This document shows positions 21,707-29,052 of a DNA stretch of 64,000 bases, one piece after another. The translations under genes and the position numbers were made by a program. Position 1 is the first letter of the stretch, and every line of letters starts with the position of its first letter. The notes beneath the pieces were generated by a model, which made no database searches, was not told the DNA's origin, and saw only the letters and a list, made by a program, of their open reading frames with translations. Source of the stretch: Jiangella muralis (GTDB taxonomy: Bacteria > Actinomycetota > Actinomycetes > Jiangellales > Jiangellaceae); contig NZ_LFXL01000010.1 of the NCBI RefSeq assembly GCF_001270745.1, positions 62,001 to 126,000 of the forward strand, read 5' to 3'.

Positions 21707-22276
21707 TGCCACCCCATTCGGCCACTTGTAGCTCAAGCCTGAGCCCCGCACGAGGACACAAGTAAATTCAAGAGCGATTCGAGTGGGCGCGAAAGGAGGC
21801 GCGTTACGCCCTCCATCTGGCAGCGGCCGACCGCACCGCGCCTCTGGAGTCCGGCGCAGCAGCCTCAGGCACAGAAGCTCCAGGTCACGCGGACGTCCCG
21901 TCCTTGCGGCCGTACTGAAAGCCTCGCGTCAGGCGGGCCGGCCGCACGGCGTCGTGGCCGCACCGGATCGACGGGGAGCGGCAGATGCGTGGTCGTTCCA
22001 TCCACCGGACATTCGCCAACTCGTCGTCTATTTCGCTGAGCGAATCGGCCTTTCCAAGCCCTTCCAACGCGTCGGCGATAGGCGGGTCGACGGCACGTCA
22101 TCGAGTTGGATTACCGTCCATCCATCGACGACACCAGCAACACGAGCGGAAGGGTTCGCGAAGTGGACAGATCCCGTCGCAAAGTGCACCAACAGCGTGA
22201 CTCATTCCGCCGTACGGTCGGACTGTACGCCGCAAATAACCCCGGCAGCGGCGTGCTCGAAACGAGGTGTCAAAAG
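21707..22276. other. 570-bp gene-free region
   Basis: No convincing gene. Both strands have open frames, but their composition and lack of motifs look like chance. The left end is AT-richer and probably carries the glycosyltransferase promoter. CGTAC/GTACG inverted arms at 22211-22229 sit about 50 bp before the HTH gene. The region marks the change from sugar genes to the HTH/indole block. Confidence 0.5.
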
Positions 22277-23680
22277 GTGAATCGTGAATTTCACGACAAC
22301 ATCGACCTGCCCATCGGACAGATCATCCGCACCGCCCGCCAGCAACTGCACATGAGCCAGTACACGCTAGCGGGCCGTCTGGCAACGATCTCCGGAAAGC
22401 GCACGATGGGTCGCGACAGGGTCGCTCGATGGGAGCGTGGCCGCCAAGTCCCTCGCCGTGAGTGGCGGCAATGGCTGTCCGTTGTCCTCGAGGTACCGTC
22501 CGAGCGGCTGGATGCGGGCGCCATCGCGGCCCGCCAACAGAACCGTCTCGGCCGCGCTGTCAGCACCGCGCGCGGCGGCAGGCCCGAAGCGTCTCGCCGG
22601 CAACAGGGCACTCCAGCTCTCCTGCCAGTATTTCGTTCCCGGATACAGGCCGGGATTCTCGCGGCCACGTTGTTGAACCCCCACCGCGCGTTCAGCCTTA
22701 CCGAGCTCGCCGACCACGCAGGCGGGTCTCTGGCTTCGGTCTCCAAGGAGGCCAAGCTGCTCGAGGACGCCGGATTTCTGGTCACACGGAGCGAAGGTGC
22801 AATCCGCCTGATGCGGGCGGCCACCGACAAGCCCACGCTGGGGCCACTCACCGAGCTCATCCGAGTCACCTACGGCGTGCCTCAGATCATCGGCGAGGAA
22901 TTCAGCCGCGTCGCCCATGTCGCGCGCATTGCGCTGATGGGCACCTGGGCCGAACGGTTCGCCGGAGTGATCGGCCCGGAGCCCGAAGCCATCCATGTGC
23001 GGGTCACCCCGCCTGCGAACGCACAGCCCGATCAGGACGCTCTGTCCGCAGCCACGGCACGGGCACGACGTCGGCTGCACCGCCCGGTACACGTCACGGT
23101 CGCCGCGGCTCCAGATGATCCGCATCCTCGGATTGACGGCACACGGGTGGACATCCCCCATCAACGCAATGGCCGGCCCGTCGTACGCATCACGCCGCTC
23201 GAGGAACCGACCGCGCCCATCGGCACGCCGTGGCGACCCGGCGCCGACGTCGTCACACGTCTGGTCGCCAGTGGCCAGCTCGAGCTGTTCAATGGCCCCA
23301 CAGCGGACAGCCGGCCATACCTCGACGCGGCAAACCACCACCTCGCGTCGGCTCGCGATGTTGCGTCGCAGGCGGCCGGGTCGGCGTTCGTCTTGCTCAG
23401 CCACGCCGCACACATGATCGGCTGCAGCCTTCTCGCGGCGCAGGGCCTGCGACCGGCAGCAGGAAGCAACGGCGACGTCGTCAGCACCTGTGTCGTCGCG
23501 CAGTTCGGAGCACAGTTCGGACACGTCGAGCTACTCCGCCAGCGGCAGCTCACCTTGAACCACCCCGTCGGGCGTGACAACAGGATCATCGCCGACGACG
23601 TCGCCGCCGCTATTCCGGCACTGGAGGCGCTGTTGAAGACCGCGCGGGACCTGTCACTGGAGCTGGATCTGTTCGGTTGA
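22277..23680 (+). CDS. Multidomain HTH - winged helix - degenerate MNT - HEPN-like protein
   Basis: 467 residues. Residues about 12-60 form an Xre-type HTH (ARQQLHMSQYTLAGRL, then VARWERGRQVP). Residues about 115-180 form a winged helix (FSLTELADHAGGSLASVSKE). Then comes a nucleotidyltransferase-like segment, MGTWAERFAGVIGPEPEAI from residue 221, which matches the GSWAARYxGxxGxxPxDxD pattern of wHTH-MNT proteins. The two metal-binding Asp are replaced by A238 and H240, so catalysis is unlikely. The C-terminal 110 residues look like an all-helical HEPN domain, with R423-QLTLN-H429 as a possible Rx5H site. The GTG at 22277 is chosen from conservation and a GAGG 9 nt upstream. Function unknown: a regulator or self-contained toxin-antitoxin-like switch are both possible. 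Domain assignments are by eye. Confidence 0.7.
   Translation: MNREFHDNIDLPIGQIIRTARQQLHMSQYTLAGRLATISGKRTMGRDRVARWERGRQVPRREWRQWLSVVLEVPSERLDAGAIAARQQNRLGRAVSTARGGRPEASRRQQGTPALLPVFRSRIQAGILAATLLNPHRAFSLTELADHAGGSLASVSKEAKLLEDAGFLVTRSEGAIRLMRAATDKPTLGPLTELIRVTYGVPQIIGEEFSRVAHVARIALMGTWAERFAGVIGPEPEAIHVRVTPPANAQPDQDALSAATARARRRLHRPVHVTVAAAPDDPHPRIDGTRVDIPHQRNGRPVVRITPLEEPTAPIGTPWRPGADVVTRLVASGQLELFNGPTADSRPYLDAANHHLASARDVASQAAGSAFVLLSHAAHMIGCSLLAAQGLRPAAGSNGDVVSTCVVAQFGAQFGHVELLRQRQLTLNHPVGRDNRIIADDVAAAIPALEALLKTARDLSLELDLFG
22282..22296. promoter_or_regulatory. 15-bp palindrome at the start of the HTH-MNT-HEPN gene
   Basis: TCGTGAATTTCACGA has perfect 7-bp arms around a single T, 2 bp after the proposed GTG start codon. 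The position suits autoregulation by the encoded HTH protein. Confidence 0.4.
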
Positions 23681-23682
23681 GG

Positions 23683-24351
23683 TCACGTGCGCAGGCGGCC
23701 GAGCTCCTGCTCGAGCGCGTCCGAGTAGGAGTTCGGCTGCGCACGCAGCAGTCCGGTGATAAGCGTGTCCTCGACCCGGCGCGCGACAACGGGCTGATCG
23801 AACAGGCTCCGGTCGCGGTTCAGCTGCCGTGTCAGCGGGCGCAACAGTCCTTGGACGAACGCACGGACGATCGCGCTACCTCGGTCCGTGACCAGGTCGA
23901 AGCGCAATGGCCGAGTCACCGGGCGACCGAGCAGCCTGCTCAGGTGGCTCGTGACCTGCGACTCGCGCAGGACATAGGCGACAACCCCGCAATCGGCCGT
24001 CCATTGCGAACGCACCGACCGTTGGGGTGACAACACCACCGTGTCGCCGGCCCTCGCAGCCGTCTGCTGGTCATCCTGCTGGACCAGACATGCACCCGTG
24101 ACCACGGTCTGGACGAGGTAGCAGCCGAGTTCGTACGGCTCGGTCCGAGCCTCGGCACCGAGTGCCACGTAGCTGACGGCCGCTCGATCGATCAGGCGGC
24201 CGTTGATCGTCACGTCAAGTCCGGGCGTCACCTCGACAACCTCTATCGGGTGCTCCCCCATGTACGTACTGACGGCCGCGCGGAACTCGGCTGGTTCCTT
24301 CGTGCGAAGGACGGGGAACCGATCGAGCGGCAACGTGCCCATGCGGTTCAC
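23683..24351 (-). CDS. AraC-type sensor domain protein lacking the DNA-binding domain
   Basis: 222 residues. It aligns along its length with the sensor half of the neighbouring AraC regulator: RSQWTADC versus TQRWSADC, RPLRFDLV versus MPVRFDLG, LLRAQPNSYSDAL versus LLVAQPSNYSHLL. It stops exactly where the HTH would begin. The GTG at 24351 overlaps the upstream TGA as GTGA; an ATG at 24342 is the alternative start. It ends 2 bp from the convergent HTH-MNT-HEPN gene. It could be a decayed duplicate, or a ligand-binding or dimerisation partner that modulates the full regulator. Confidence 0.75.
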   Translation of the reverse strand: MNRMGTLPLDRFPVLRTKEPAEFRAAVSTYMGEHPIEVVEVTPGLDVTINGRLIDRAAVSYVALGAEARTEPYELGCYLVQTVVTGACLVQQDDQQTAARAGDTVVLSPQRSVRSQWTADCGVVAYVLRESQVTSHLSRLLGRPVTRPLRFDLVTDRGSAIVRAFVQGLLRPLTRQLNRDRSLFDQPVVARRVEDTLITGLLRAQPNSYSDALEQELGRLRT

Positions 24352-25328
24352 CGCGTCAGCGTCTCCGACGGCGATTCCCCGAACCGTCGGCGGTATCTGA
24401 CGGCGAATCGGCCGGAGTGGCCGAAACCCCACCTGGCAGCCACCCGTGCGACGGTGGTCGTATCGCGATCAGCGGCCCGCAACTCCTCACGCGCCCGCCG
24501 CATGCGTACCGACACCAGGTACTCGCGCGGTGTGACTCCCACGTGCTGCTTGAAGGCCACCTGTAGCGCCCGCACACTGACCTGGGCCATCTTGGCGAGG
24601 CTCGCTACCGTGTGCTCCCACTCGGGATGGTTCTCGATCATTTCGCGGACCTGTGAGACGGCACGGTTCGGAATCACCGAATGCTTGGACTCGTGGAGCA
24701 GGTGCGAATAGTTGCTCGGCTGCGCGACGAGGAGCGACGTCATGAGCATGTCCTCGAGCTCCGAGACCACCAGGCGGTTGGTCACCATGCTGCCTTCGGC
24801 GTGATCCAGTTCGTCGACCAGGATGCGGAAGTACGCCGCCCAGGTCCGGCCGAATCCGGTGCTGATGTCCATACCGAGGTCGAACCGGACCGGCATCGGA
24901 AGCGGCACATCGACCAGGTCCCGCAGGTGCGCCTCGAGCGCGGGTCGTTCCAGCCGGAGAATGAGCTGAGCGCAATCCGCCGACCAACGTTGAGTGAGCG
25001 GGATCGTAGGCGACACCACCGACGCCGTCTCCGGCGTCGACAGTAGTTCGTCGCCTCCGCAGTGGACCGTGCTCCTGCCTGTCAACGGCACCTGGACCAC
25101 GAAGAACGAGCCCAGCTCACCGGGTTCGATCAGTACTTCGCCGCCGTAGGCGACGTAGTTCGCTGCGAGGCGATCGATGCGCTTCGTGTGCATGCGGGCG
25201 CGTACCTGCGTGGACCCACCGACCAGATCCAGCCGATGCGGCACGAACACCTGACCCACGAGGTCACGGGCGTCGTCCAGGTCCTCGGTGTAGAACAACT
25301 CGAACAGCTGCAGTGGCGGTGCGCTCAT
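24348..25328 (-). CDS. AraC-family transcriptional regulator
   Basis: 326 residues. The first 210 form an AraC-binding-like sensor domain; the last 100 hold the double HTH, with VASLAKMAQVSVRALQVAFK, GVTPREYLVSVRMRRARE and ARWGFGHSGRFAVRYRRRFG, the canonical AraC signature. It is divergent from the tryptophanase gene. The spacer carries GTCAC direct repeats about two helical turns apart, so it probably controls tryptophanase and itself. The 3' end overlaps the start of the sensor-only paralog. Confidence 0.92.
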   Translation of the reverse strand: MSAPPLQLFELFYTEDLDDARDLVGQVFVPHRLDLVGGSTQVRARMHTKRIDRLAANYVAYGGEVLIEPGELGSFFVVQVPLTGRSTVHCGGDELLSTPETASVVSPTIPLTQRWSADCAQLILRLERPALEAHLRDLVDVPLPMPVRFDLGMDISTGFGRTWAAYFRILVDELDHAEGSMVTNRLVVSELEDMLMTSLLVAQPSNYSHLLHESKHSVIPNRAVSQVREMIENHPEWEHTVASLAKMAQVSVRALQVAFKQHVGVTPREYLVSVRMRRAREELRAADRDTTTVARVAARWGFGHSGRFAVRYRRRFGESPSETLTR

Positions 25329-25405
25329 GGCGGGTCCCTCTACGGATCTTCCCGGCCTTGTGGCGTTCGGCGCTTCCGAAAACAGCCCTAGTCGGGCGAG
25401 ACTCC

Positions 25406-25475
25406 GTCACGATAGCCCCGTTCGGAGCGAGTCGTCACGACTGCAGCGTGTCACAGATGCAGGCCAATTGTCACA
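25406..25475 (+). promoter_or_regulatory. GTCAC repeats, candidate AraC sites before tryptophanase
   Basis: GTCAC occurs at 25406, 25434, 25450 and 25470. The last two are part of TGTCACA at 25449-25455 and 25469-25475, in direct orientation 20 bp apart. AraC-family activators typically bind direct repeats at about this distance. The site lies 95-164 bp before the tryptophanase start. Confidence 0.45.
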
Positions 25476-25569
25476 AGATCGTCGGTGTCCTCGGATTGGC
25501 CCCTACCGGCGACGGCTCACGTCGCACAGACTTGATGACGTCGAGTCGCGCCGCGCGAAGGGACTATCC

Positions 25570-27003
25570 GTGCCCGCGTTCATGGAGCCGTTCCGCATCA
25601 AGGCCGTCGAGCCGATTCCCTTCCCCAGCCTGCCGGAACGTCGTCGCGCGCTGCACGAGGCCGGGTTCAACCTGTTCCGGGTGCCGGCTCGCGCCATCAC
25701 CATCGACTTACTCACCGACTCGGGGACCAGCGCGATGTCAGCCGCACAGTGGGCGGCCCTCATGGTCGGCGACGAGTCGTATGCCGGCGCGCGGTCGTAC
25801 GAGCGGTTCGAGACAGTGGTGCGCGAATTGACCGGCTATCCCGAAGTGATCCCGGCGCACCAGGGCCGTGCGGCGGAGCGCATCCTGCTCGGCCGGTTGT
25901 TGCGGCCGGGCGACGTCTCGGTGGCGAACACCCACTTCGACACGACACGGGCCAGCGTGGAGGCGGCCGGCGCCGAGGCCGTCGACCTCCCGTCCGAGCA
26001 GACCGGCCCAGCGCCGTTCGGCGGCGACATATCCGTTCCCGCGCTGCGCGACCTGCTGTCCGGCCCCGGCGGCTCCCGGGTGCGGTGTGTGGTGCTGACG
26101 GTGACGAACAACGCCGGCGGCGGGCAGCCGGTGTCGCTGGCCAACGTCGCCGCGGTCCGCGAGCTGTGCGACCGGCACGGTGTGACGCTGCTGCTGGACG
26201 CGTCGCGGTTCGCGGAGAACGCATACCTCATCACCGAGCGCGACCCGGCACACGCCGGCCGCGCGCCCCGCGACGTTGCCCGCGAGGTGTTCGCGCTCGC
26301 CGACGGCTGCTGGGCAAGCCTGAAGAAGGACGGCGTGGCGAACATCGGCGGGCTGATCGCGCTGCGCGACGCCGAGCTGGCCCGCCGCTGCCGCGACCAG
26401 CTGATCGCCGTCGAGGGCTTCCCGACGTACGGCGGGCTGGCCGGACGCGACCTGGAGGCGCTGGCCCAGGGCCTGCTCGAGGTGACCGACCCGGACTACC
26501 TGCGGTATCGCGCGCAGACGGCCCGGTGGTTCGGCGAGCAGCTGGCCGAGGCCGGCCTGCCCGTGCTGCAGCCCACCGGCTGCCACGCCGTGTACGTCGA
26601 CGCCGCGGCCCTGTTGCCGCAGGTGCCGCCGCATCGGCTCCCGGCGACGGCGCTGGCCAACGAGCTGTACCTGGCCGGCGCGGTGCGGGTCTCCGAGCTG
26701 GGGACGCTGGTGTTCGGCCGGCCCGCACCGGACGGCGGCAACGACCTTCCGGCGCCACGCGAGCTGGTCCGGTTCGCGCTGCCCCGGCGGGTCTACACCA
26801 GGAGCCACCTCGAGTACGTCGCCGAGAGCGCGGCGACCGTCGTGGCAAAGGTGGCGGAGATCCCGGGCTACCGGATCGTCGAACAGACCGGGCCGCTGCG
26901 GCACTTCACGGCCGTGCTCGCGCCCGGCGAGTCCGCCGGGCCACCCGGGCGGCCCGGGCAGCCCGCTCCAGGTCCGACGAGCCCACGTCCAGAACCTGGC
27001 TGA
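25570..27003 (+). CDS. tnaA: Tryptophanase (beta-eliminating lyase)
   Basis: 477 residues. PLP enzyme that splits L-tryptophan to indole, pyruvate and ammonia. It follows E. coli TnaA along its length: EPFRIKAVEPI, IDLLTDSGTSAMS, Y77 in ARSYERF, HQGRAAE, FDTTRA, Schiff-base lysine K253 in LKKDGVANIGG, and the C-terminal LRHFTA. His445 in that last motif matches the His that separates tryptophanase from tyrosine phenol-lyase. The GTG at 25570 follows AAGGGA. The final 30 residues are a Pro/Gly tail overlapping the antisense HTH gene by 98 bp. Followed on the same strand by a TsrM-like methyltransferase and exporter, suggesting the substrate may be a methylated tryptophan. Confidence 0.9.
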   Translation: MPAFMEPFRIKAVEPIPFPSLPERRRALHEAGFNLFRVPARAITIDLLTDSGTSAMSAAQWAALMVGDESYAGARSYERFETVVRELTGYPEVIPAHQGRAAERILLGRLLRPGDVSVANTHFDTTRASVEAAGAEAVDLPSEQTGPAPFGGDISVPALRDLLSGPGGSRVRCVVLTVTNNAGGGQPVSLANVAAVRELCDRHGVTLLLDASRFAENAYLITERDPAHAGRAPRDVAREVFALADGCWASLKKDGVANIGGLIALRDAELARRCRDQLIAVEGFPTYGGLAGRDLEALAQGLLEVTDPDYLRYRAQTARWFGEQLAEAGLPVLQPTGCHAVYVDAAALLPQVPPHRLPATALANELYLAGAVRVSELGTLVFGRPAPDGGNDLPAPRELVRFALPRRVYTRSHLEYVAESAATVVAKVAEIPGYRIVEQTGPLRHFTAVLAPGESAGPPGRPGQPAPGPTSPRPEPG

Positions 27004-27208
27004 TCCACTGCCGCCAGTACGGACCGGGGATGCGTTTGCCGCGCTCCCAGCGGGCAACCTCGTCGCGGGTGAGCGAGCCGTTGCCGGAGATGCGAACGAG
27101 TTCGTCGGCGACGCCGTACTGGCTGTAGCCGAGCCGGGACCGGGCCTGGCGGATCACGGTGCCGACGGCCTCATCGGGGGACGTCACGCCTGCGGTGCGG
27201 ACGATCAT
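26906..27208 (-). CDS. Small Xre-type HTH regulator
   Basis: 100 residues consisting mainly of one HTH: RSRLGYSQYGVADELV, then RDEVARWERGKRIPGPYWR. It is clearly related to the N-terminus of the 22277-23680 protein, which has TMGRDRVARWERGRQVPRREWR at the same place, but it lacks the winged helix, MNT and HEPN parts. The ATG at 27208 is chosen from the start of similarity. The 3' end overlaps the tryptophanase tail on the other strand by 98 bp. It is divergent from the radical SAM gene, whose promoter region carries inverted and TCGCGAA repeats, so it may control that gene. Confidence 0.75.
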   Translation of the reverse strand: MIVRTAGVTSPDEAVGTVIRQARSRLGYSQYGVADELVRISGNGSLTRDEVARWERGKRIPGPYWRQWISQVLDVGSSDLERAARAARVARRTRRARARP

Positions 27209-27245
27209 CTTCACACATCGAGCCTGATCAATCGTGCACGGGCAC

Positions 27246-27314
27246 GCCAGGACAGAACACGAAGAGTCCTGGCCAGTTCGCGAAAAGCCGCAGGTCAGCG
27301 GCCTGTCTCGCGAA
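27246..27314. promoter_or_regulatory. Inverted and repeated sites between HTH and radical SAM genes
   Basis: GCCAGGAC (27246-27253) and GTCCTGGC (27266-27273) form 8-bp inverted arms. TTCGCGAA at 27277-27284 and TCGCGAA at 27308-27314 form a repeat about three helical turns apart. Together they look like an operator region for the small HTH protein. Confidence 0.4.
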
Positions 27315-27393
27315 CAACGGAAACCGGCCCCCTCCCCAGGGCACCGCCCGGGTGCCACGCTGGACGATCGACTCCATCCCCGGGGAGGCGTAC

Positions 27394-29052
27394 GTGAACC
27401 GCCCGCTCGTCACGCTGGTGAACCCGAACCTGGTGCACCCACCCATCACGCCGTATGCGCTGGACATCCTCGCCACGTCGTTGGAAGCCGCCGGTTTCGA
27501 GGTGGACGTGGTCGACCTGACGCTGGTGCGCGACCGGTGGCGGCACACCGTCGCGACGTATTTCGGCGAGCACCGGCCGGTTCTGGTGGGCATGACGTTC
27601 CGGAACACGGACACGATCTACCCCCAGGAGCAGCGCGTCTTCCTCGACTCGCACCGCGACATCGTGCGTGAGGTGCGGCGGTGGACGACGGCGCCGATCG
27701 TGGGCGGCGGGGTGGGGTTCTCGTCCATGCCGTTCGCGCTGGTGGACTGGTTCGGCCTCGACTACGGCGTCAAGGGACCGGGCGAGGTGACGATGGTCGA
27801 GCTGGCGACGATGCTGGCGAACGACGACTCGCCGGCGAAGGTGCCGGGTCTGATCATCAACCTCGGCCGGGGCGACGTCCGGCAGATCCCGCACCGCACG
27901 CAGCTGATCGCGGACGGCCGAGTCGAGCTGGTGAACCGGGTGACCCCGTACACGCGGCGTTCCGGCGTGCCGGACAAGGTCGACAACCTCGCGTACTACG
28001 AGCGCGGCGGGCTAGGCAACATCCTGACGAAGAACGGCTGCACGTTCGCCTGCGCGCACTGCGTCGAGCCGGATGCCAAGGGCAACCGGTTCGCCCGCCG
28101 CGCCGAATCCGCCGTCGTCGACGAGATGGAGCTGCTGACGGCGCAGGGCGTGCACGACCTGCACACGACGGACAGCGAGTTCAACCTCAACATCGCGCAC
28201 AGCAAGGCGGTGCTGCGCGAGATCGTCCGGCGCAAGCGCATCGACCGGTACTCGCCGCTGCACGAGCTGCGGCTGTGGATCTACGTGCAGCCGGCGCCGT
28301 TCGACGAGGAGTACGCGGCGCTGCTGGCCGAGGCCGGCTGCGCGGGCATCAACGTGGCGCCGGACCACGTCCGCGACGACGTCCTGAACGGCTGGAAGGT
28401 GACCGGCCGCGGCACCCGGTTCTACGGCTACGCCGACGTGCAGCGGCTGTGCGACCTGGCGACGCAGTACGAGATGCTGACGATGGTGGAGGCGCTGCTC
28501 GGCATGCCGGGCGAGACCGCCGAGACCATGCACGACTGTGTCGACGGCCTGCTCGCGCTGGACGCGACGGTGGTCGGTTTCACGCTGGGCCTCCGCGCGT
28601 TCCCGTACTCGCCGCTGGGCCGCGACCTCGCCGCCCGCAGCGGCGGCACCCGTGCCGTCCCCGGCCTGCAGTCCAACACGGCGACGGCGCCGATCCTGCT
28701 GTCGACGCTGGACCAGTGCCACAGCCGGGTGGAATACGAGCGGCAGTTCATGTTCGACCCGATGGGCGGGTTCCGGCCGGTCTACTACTTCTCCCCCGCG
28801 CTGCCCGAGGGTGCACGAAACACCCGGCCCGGCGACCGCTGGCTGACCAGCCTGGAGCTGCTGTGGGAGTGGGTGCCGCTGCATGACCGCCCGCGGGTCA
28901 TGCTGCCGACGGCGCCGGGACTGACGCCGGAGGACAACAACTACGCCGACAACCCGTTCCTGCTGCGGCTCACCGCGTTGGGCTACAAGGGCGCCTTCTG
29001 GTCACACTGGCCGCTGCGCGCGGAGATCATGGGTGGCACCGTCCCGGCCTGA
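27394..29052 (+). CDS. Cobalamin-binding radical SAM methyltransferase, TsrM-like
   Basis: 552 residues. The N-terminal 150 form a B12-binding-like fold (LVNPNLVHPPITPYALDILA) without the DxHxxG that supplies a lower cobalt ligand. The radical SAM cluster motif is C216-TFA-C220-AH-C223. TsrM, the enzyme that methylates C2 of tryptophan in thiostrepton-type biosynthesis, also lacks DxHxxG and carries an arginine near residue 69 under the cobalamin; here R70 lies in GMTFRNTDT. That resemblance and the adjacent tryptophanase suggest an indole or tryptophan methyltransferase. The GTG at 27394 has GGGGAGG 6 nt upstream. Other class-B radical SAM reactions cannot be excluded. Confidence 0.8.
   Translation: MNRPLVTLVNPNLVHPPITPYALDILATSLEAAGFEVDVVDLTLVRDRWRHTVATYFGEHRPVLVGMTFRNTDTIYPQEQRVFLDSHRDIVREVRRWTTAPIVGGGVGFSSMPFALVDWFGLDYGVKGPGEVTMVELATMLANDDSPAKVPGLIINLGRGDVRQIPHRTQLIADGRVELVNRVTPYTRRSGVPDKVDNLAYYERGGLGNILTKNGCTFACAHCVEPDAKGNRFARRAESAVVDEMELLTAQGVHDLHTTDSEFNLNIAHSKAVLREIVRRKRIDRYSPLHELRLWIYVQPAPFDEEYAALLAEAGCAGINVAPDHVRDDVLNGWKVTGRGTRFYGYADVQRLCDLATQYEMLTMVEALLGMPGETAETMHDCVDGLLALDATVVGFTLGLRAFPYSPLGRDLAARSGGTRAVPGLQSNTATAPILLSTLDQCHSRVEYERQFMFDPMGGFRPVYYFSPALPEGARNTRPGDRWLTSLELLWEWVPLHDRPRVMLPTAPGLTPEDNNYADNPFLLRLTALGYKGAFWSHWPLRAEIMGGTVPA

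Follow-up and report, generated by a model that had tools for sequence, protein, structure and literature searches.

In this study, we describe a single gene of Jiangella muralis (22277..23680, forward strand, of the window, by which we mean the whole 64,000-nucleotide stretch analysed) that joins both halves of a HEPN-MNT toxin-antitoxin pair to two DNA-binding domains. The 467-aa product, translated from a GTG start, consists of an Xre helix-turn-helix (HTH), a winged helix, a dead MNT domain, a linker and a dead HEPN domain. It can best be described as a domesticated HEPN-MNT pair, both members of which are dead. We consider it likely, with a probability of roughly 0.7, that this pair has been turned into an autoregulated transcription factor, which controls its own gene and a nearby cluster coding for a tryptophanase and a TsrM-type methyltransferase.

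Domain architecture and split relatives

The GTG codon at 22277 is the conserved start of the fusion gene, as orthologues share a GTG/ATG start region. The mechanical open reading frame can be extended upstream to 22106, but a conserved promoter element (22155-22190) falls inside this extension. All five segments lie on the forward strand. The Xre/Cro-type HTH (residues 10-92, 22304..22552) was recognized by structure matches and by its paralogy to a small Xre gene nearby, and the winged helix (residues 110-183, 22604..22825) by weak MarR/HTH_20 sequence matches together with structure matches. It is followed by the MNT domain (residues 184-278, 22826..23110), identified by profile comparison and motif alignment; a variable, disordered linker of low model confidence (residues 279-319, 23111..23233); and the HEPN domain (residues 320-467, 23234..23677), identified by structure and profile matches. 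Pfam and NCBIfam searches with the full protein gave nothing beyond weak, sub-threshold HTH signals, and routine annotation would therefore miss the other domains.

The identity of the MNT and HEPN domains came via split relatives. Our search of the phylum recovered winged-helix-MNT genes of ~180-220 codons, most of them followed by a HEPN gene of ~150 codons, and PADLOC labels such pairs PDC-M05A and PDC-M05B. Within Jiangellaceae, split pairs of adjacent, overlapping genes were found in one relative (G009, locus L025, 195 + 151 aa) and in the source genome itself, whose wHTH-MNT/HEPN pair (L003, G000:C1, ~343.6-344.7 kb) is intact and retains its MNT motif. The split family carries GS(W/F)...D(I/V)D in the MNT protein and R(N/H/other)xxEY in the HEPN protein, with Tyr replacing the usual His, and one split HEPN protein scores above the PF05168 cutoff (29.1 bits versus 22). 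Class II pairs have been characterized by GSX10DXD and a conserved Tyr, without RX4H (PMC7641770), and the split relatives match these class II (PF05168) HEPN-MNT pairs.

Alignment with wHTH-MNT families, which the sequence-only reading had proposed as a check, gave a strong result: in hhalign, the fused winged helix and MNT domain matched split wHTH-MNT proteins with intact DxD at E 6e-41 (163 columns, 40% identity), and the fused HEPN domain matched split HEPN proteins at E 2e-22 (146 columns, 30% identity). Of the two PADLOC profiles, PDC-M05A matched residues 112-277 at E 5e-28 and PDC-M05B matched residues 325-398 weakly (E 1.3e-4). In a tree of the wHTH-MNT part, the fused proteins cluster together with full support and are set off by a long branch; the tree does not resolve their nearest split relative. 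HEPN profiles found no relative among PDB sequences, and no SAV_6107 model in Pfam was matched by the fusion or by the split HEPN proteins, one of which passes the PF05168 cutoff as noted above. Judging from these sequence relationships, the HEPN domain of the fusion appears to belong with PF05168-type HEPN.

In the AlphaFold model of the full fusion (mean pLDDT 69, pTM 0.38), the HTH and HEPN domains are predicted with confidence; the order of the domains can be regarded as firm, their packing cannot. Foldseek with this model returned mostly winged-helix matches and nothing at E under 0.001. In a VIA structure search, the top four matches were all HEPN proteins (2hsb, Z 13.5 over 116 residues; 1wol, 11.9; 3o10, 11.5; 1ufb, 11.4), followed by HTHs of HigA-type antitoxins, with model residues ~9-92 matching HigA and P22 c2 at Z ~10-11. 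The MNT core, when folded alone, gave an alpha/beta model for which ribosomal S3 KH domains (Z 7.8) score about as well as the MNT structures 8xeh and 5yep (Z 7.3-7.4). Structure prediction, which by the sequence-only reading would have refuted it by showing no nucleotidyltransferase or HEPN fold, recovered the HEPN fold and left the MNT core tied with KH-like folds, so that the MNT assignment rests on sequence profiles. Taken together, profiles, structure matches and a conserved full-length frame support all four parts of the earlier view of one protein with HTH, winged helix, MNT and HEPN-like domains.

Loss of both catalytic sites under purifying selection

The MNT domain of the fusion has G222-T223-W in place of GSW, with T223 at the Ser position, and A238 and H240 at the positions of the two catalytic Asp residues; the alignment thereby confirms the residues that had been read from the sequence alone (GTW, Ala and His). 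Most fusion orthologues have x-I-Q at the DxD position, with Q at the H240 site. DxD is missing in every fused orthologue and GS is altered in nearly all of them, and the GSX10DXD motif is accordingly absent from the group. In the HEPN domain, the catalytic Arg position is occupied by Q424 here, and by Q, H, L, M, E, A or S across the fused orthologues, while the Tyr/His position holds H429 here and H, F, R, D, N, T or Y across the orthologues. Neither the RX4HXY of class I nor the conserved acceptor Tyr of class II is found in the fused proteins. It had been suggested that the C-terminal domain may carry an Rx5H RNase-type site. R423 and H429 are indeed present with this spacing, but the His is not conserved and the catalytic Arg is replaced by Q424; R423 is invariant among the fused proteins, yet it aligns to a variable position of the split family. 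As far as can be told from the alignments, both enzyme sites of the fusion, MNT and HEPN, are lost.

Pairwise omega for the whole fusion gene ranges from 0.13 to 0.25. By domain, it is 0.02-0.18 for the Xre HTH, ~0-0.11 for the winged helix, which is the most constrained domain, 0.08-0.31 for MNT, 0.12-0.31 for HEPN and ~0.2-0.8 for the linker. All domains, the dead MNT and HEPN among them, are kept under purifying selection.

Distribution and gene neighbourhood

Full-length orthologues are present in 17 out of 22 genomes of the family (Jiangellaceae), including the source genome, a 7.27-Mb draft whose nearest relatives in the collection are Jiangella species. Beyond the family, we found them on five Pseudonocardiaceae-like contigs, from Haloechinothrix halophila and from MAGs labelled Actinophytocola. 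Every fusion orthologue has all four domains in a single chain of the 467-aa type, and the two-gene layout of type VII systems was found in none. The distribution looks strictly vertical and synteny is stable. Phage records gave no match to the fusion, and plasmids gave matches to split pairs and no full-length fusion match. One further trace was seen in G008:C30, where a frameshifted piece of the fusion HEPN part (~25.6-26.0 kb; L044 8674-9062) lies ~10 kb upstream of the intact gene and is likely a partial duplication.

Directly 3' of the fusion gene, and conserved in Jiangella, lies a reverse-strand gene for an AraC-like sensor domain without a DNA-binding domain (23683..24432). This sensor-only gene adjoins the gene of a full AraC-family regulator (24348..25328, reverse strand, convergent with the fusion gene; AraC_binding_2 and HTH_18; AndR-like in NCBIfam, below cutoff), and its product could titrate a ligand or partner of the full-length AraC protein. 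Next come a tryptophanase/beta-eliminating lyase gene (25327..27003, forward strand; NF009709, 564 bits, cutoff 285), whose true start is downstream of 25327, and the small Xre-family gene (26906..27214, reverse strand), which starts at GTG 27214 or ATG 27208 by conservation. The latter is a paralogue of the N-terminal HTH of the fusion (50% identity over 70 aa). Divergent from it is a gene for a TsrM-type cobalamin radical-SAM tryptophan 2-C-methyltransferase (27352..29052, forward strand; TIGR04428, 927 bits, cutoff 500), after which an MFS exporter gene is often found. The presence of TsrM and a tryptophanase suggests a possible route to 2-methyltryptophan or 2-methylindole; our literature search found no paper on such a tryptophanase/TsrM 2-methylindole route. 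Third-position GC of the chosen open reading frames is ~0.78-0.84 before ~25 kb of the window, and past 27 kb most values reach at least 0.9. This shift suggests that the boundary of an island lies close to the tryptophanase and TsrM genes.

The linkage is conserved. In 14 of the 17 fusion-bearing Jiangellaceae genomes, no more than ~10 kb separate the TsrM and tryptophanase genes from the fusion gene; in another (G017) the distance is 27 kb. Haloechinothrix and two MAG contigs also have this gene set at up to 10 kb from the fusion gene, arranged in a different order. As in a cluster-situated regulator, DNA-binding domains are thus combined with conserved linkage to a pathway. The conserved surroundings of the fusion gene consist of AraC, tryptophanase, Xre and TsrM genes; the embedding among defence genes that marks PDC-M05 was not found. 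In the genome G013, only the 3' third of TsrM is left (C341, L095 9089-9637, 93% identical), and the fusion gene and tryptophanase are missing. A strict bond between fusion and pathway was considered and ruled out, since G018 and G019 hold the fusion gene while TsrM and tryptophanase were not found in either; for the same reason, the pathway cannot be the sole role of the fusion.

A predicted operator at two promoters

When fusion promoters were aligned, a repeated element emerged 96-142 bp before the fusion start: TTCGCRAAGTGGACA-N6-GTCGCRAARTGCACC, two tandem half-sites spaced by 21 bp. In J. muralis, this predicted operator is the direct repeat TTCGCGAAGTGGACA-N6-GTCGCAAAGTGCACC (22155..22190, forward strand; 36 bp, 21-bp period), which lies 122 bp before the start codon of the fusion gene. 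The repeat is exact here, and with up to 3 mismatches allowed it is unique in the 7.27-Mb genome. A second predicted copy, with a stronger first half-site, lies between the divergent small Xre and TsrM genes (27249..27284, reverse strand). A matrix trained on Jiangella fusion promoters only picks this divergent promoter in all six Jiangella loci examined and in two Phytoactinopolyspora loci, and no more than 2 of 674,466 background positions score as high as the Jiangella Xre/TsrM sites. The matrix also finds the fusion promoters of other genera; matches are weak in the Haloechinothrix group, where the 21-bp period is retained.

The tandem pattern was matched 22 times in the 22 family genomes. 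Of these sites, 14 belong to fusion promoters and 7 to small-Xre/TsrM promoters, while 1 lies elsewhere (in G011), compared with 0 for a reversed control pattern in the same genomes; the five family genomes without the fusion gene have no tandem-pattern match. Three genomes (G019-G021) have the pattern at neither the fusion nor the Xre/TsrM promoter, and the matrix found no Xre/TsrM operator in G021. Two other genomes are informative. G017 has operators at both places although fusion and pathway are unlinked, and G018 has kept the operator at the fusion promoter without a small Xre gene, tryptophanase or TsrM. The latter case favours the fusion itself as the operator binder. A shared operator at the regulator's own promoter and at a pathway promoter is a further mark of a cluster-situated regulator that, by this comparison of promoters, the fusion appears to have. 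As the HTHs of the two proteins are 50% identical, the small Xre protein and the fusion may compete for the operator.

Discussion

We suggest that the fusion arose when an Xre DNA-binding domain was joined to both halves of a wHTH-MNT/HEPN pair of the class II HEPN-MNT or PDC-M05 kind; both enzyme sites have been lost and the folds retained. Most likely, the protein binds the tandem operator of its own promoter, in which the half-sites are spaced by 21 bp or two helical turns. In the majority of relatives that carry the pathway, it would also bind the divergent small-Xre/TsrM promoter. It would thereby control itself and the tryptophanase/TsrM cluster; activation and repression cannot be told apart from sequence. 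The former MNT-HEPN neutralization interface is probably an oligomerization or effector-sensing body and not an enzyme. The sequence-only reading had offered a regulator built from toxin-antitoxin parts as one of two possibilities, and this one is well supported by the homology to split wHTH-MNT/HEPN pairs, the two DNA-binding modules, the pathway linkage and the lineage-specific predicted operator. A more far-reaching idea, which we put forward tentatively and think somewhat more apt to be wrong than right, is that a toxin-antitoxin or defence pair, complete within one chain yet catalytically dead, serves as the sensory and oligomerization body of a new class of transcription factor, in which the interface or nucleotide pocket senses an effector and so sets the placement of the Xre and winged-helix domains on the 21-bp-period operator of a tryptophan-methylation/tryptophanase pathway.

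Other readings have to be weighed against this one. The small Xre protein could be the one that binds the tandem repeats, with the fusion as one of its targets; the fusion would then act elsewhere, perhaps as a regulator that binds RNA or protein in the manner of MtlR. The operator does lie at the promoter of the small Xre gene in Jiangella and in two Phytoactinopolyspora loci, the HTH is common to both proteins, and MtlR, an inactive HEPN protein, is a repressor of mannitol genes for which no DNA binding could be detected (PMC3710099); but G018 retains the operator at the fusion promoter without any small Xre gene, and the strongest constraint within the fusion falls on its winged helix, which makes this reading unlikely, if the most serious of the alternatives.

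Still less probable is that the fusion remains a self-contained toxin-antitoxin or defence unit whose DNA-binding parts serve merely for autoregulation. Toxin-antitoxin modules typically autoregulate, the homology to PDC-M05 and class II HEPN-MNT pairs is evident, and a HEPN domain with a non-canonical site could remain toxic, as class II toxins lack RX4H (PMC7641770). Against this stand the loss of DxD in all orthologues and the change of GS in nearly all, the loss of the catalytic Arg and the conserved Tyr with neither position fixed for any residue, and a distribution that looks strictly vertical, in which synteny is stable and neither phage matches nor full-length plasmid matches occur. 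Finally, the absence of both catalytic sites might be taken as the mark of a fossil, a fused pair without selected function. We regard this as very improbable, since the substitution pattern over the whole gene already contradicts a fossil, as do full-length frames in at least two families. The other possibility raised earlier, a silenced defence switch, is not supported if it is taken to mean a decaying relic, which the omega values of the MNT and HEPN domains rule out.

As a rule, domestication of toxin-antitoxin systems is deduced from individual degenerate proteins. In the present case, the path is open to comparison over its full length, from intact two-gene pairs, one of them in the same genome, to a fused, dead and selected four-domain protein, and the predicted operator and target genes allow the step from an addiction or defence module to a transcription factor to be put to the test. 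The fusion, which we favour as a transcription factor, also offers a regulatory handle on an uncharacterized tryptophanase/TsrM cluster, for which products of the 2-methylindole type are possible.

Comparison with known systems

The candidate defence system PDC-M05, whose antiviral role is itself unconfirmed (PMC12988326), is among the closest known counterparts: like the fusion, it has winged-helix-MNT and HEPN domains, and the homology runs from end to end. PDC-M05 consists of two genes, whereas the fusion is one chain, has gained an Xre HTH and has lost the DxD and the HEPN Arg/Tyr. The type VII HEPN-MNT system (HepT/MntA, SO_3166/SO_3165) has the same two folds, with homology in both domains. 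Unlike HepT/MntA, the fusion is a single chain with DNA-binding domains, is situated in a biosynthetic-type cluster and has neither GSX10DXD nor RX4HXY; it lacks the features by which a type VII toxin-antitoxin system is defined.

In HEPN domains that are fused to MNTs, the catalytic residues are usually missing, and GlnD/GlnE and kanamycin nucleotidyltransferase have been described as domesticated toxin-antitoxin pairs (Anantharaman et al. 2013, PMC3710099). These proteins resemble the fusion in carrying MNT and an inactive HEPN in one chain, but they keep an active nucleotidyltransferase, while that of the fusion is dead and two DNA-binding domains have been added. MtlR, which has an inactive HEPN domain as well, regulates a metabolic (mannitol) operon (PMC3710099); it has no DNA-binding or MNT domain and no detectable operator binding, whereas the fusion has domains of both kinds.
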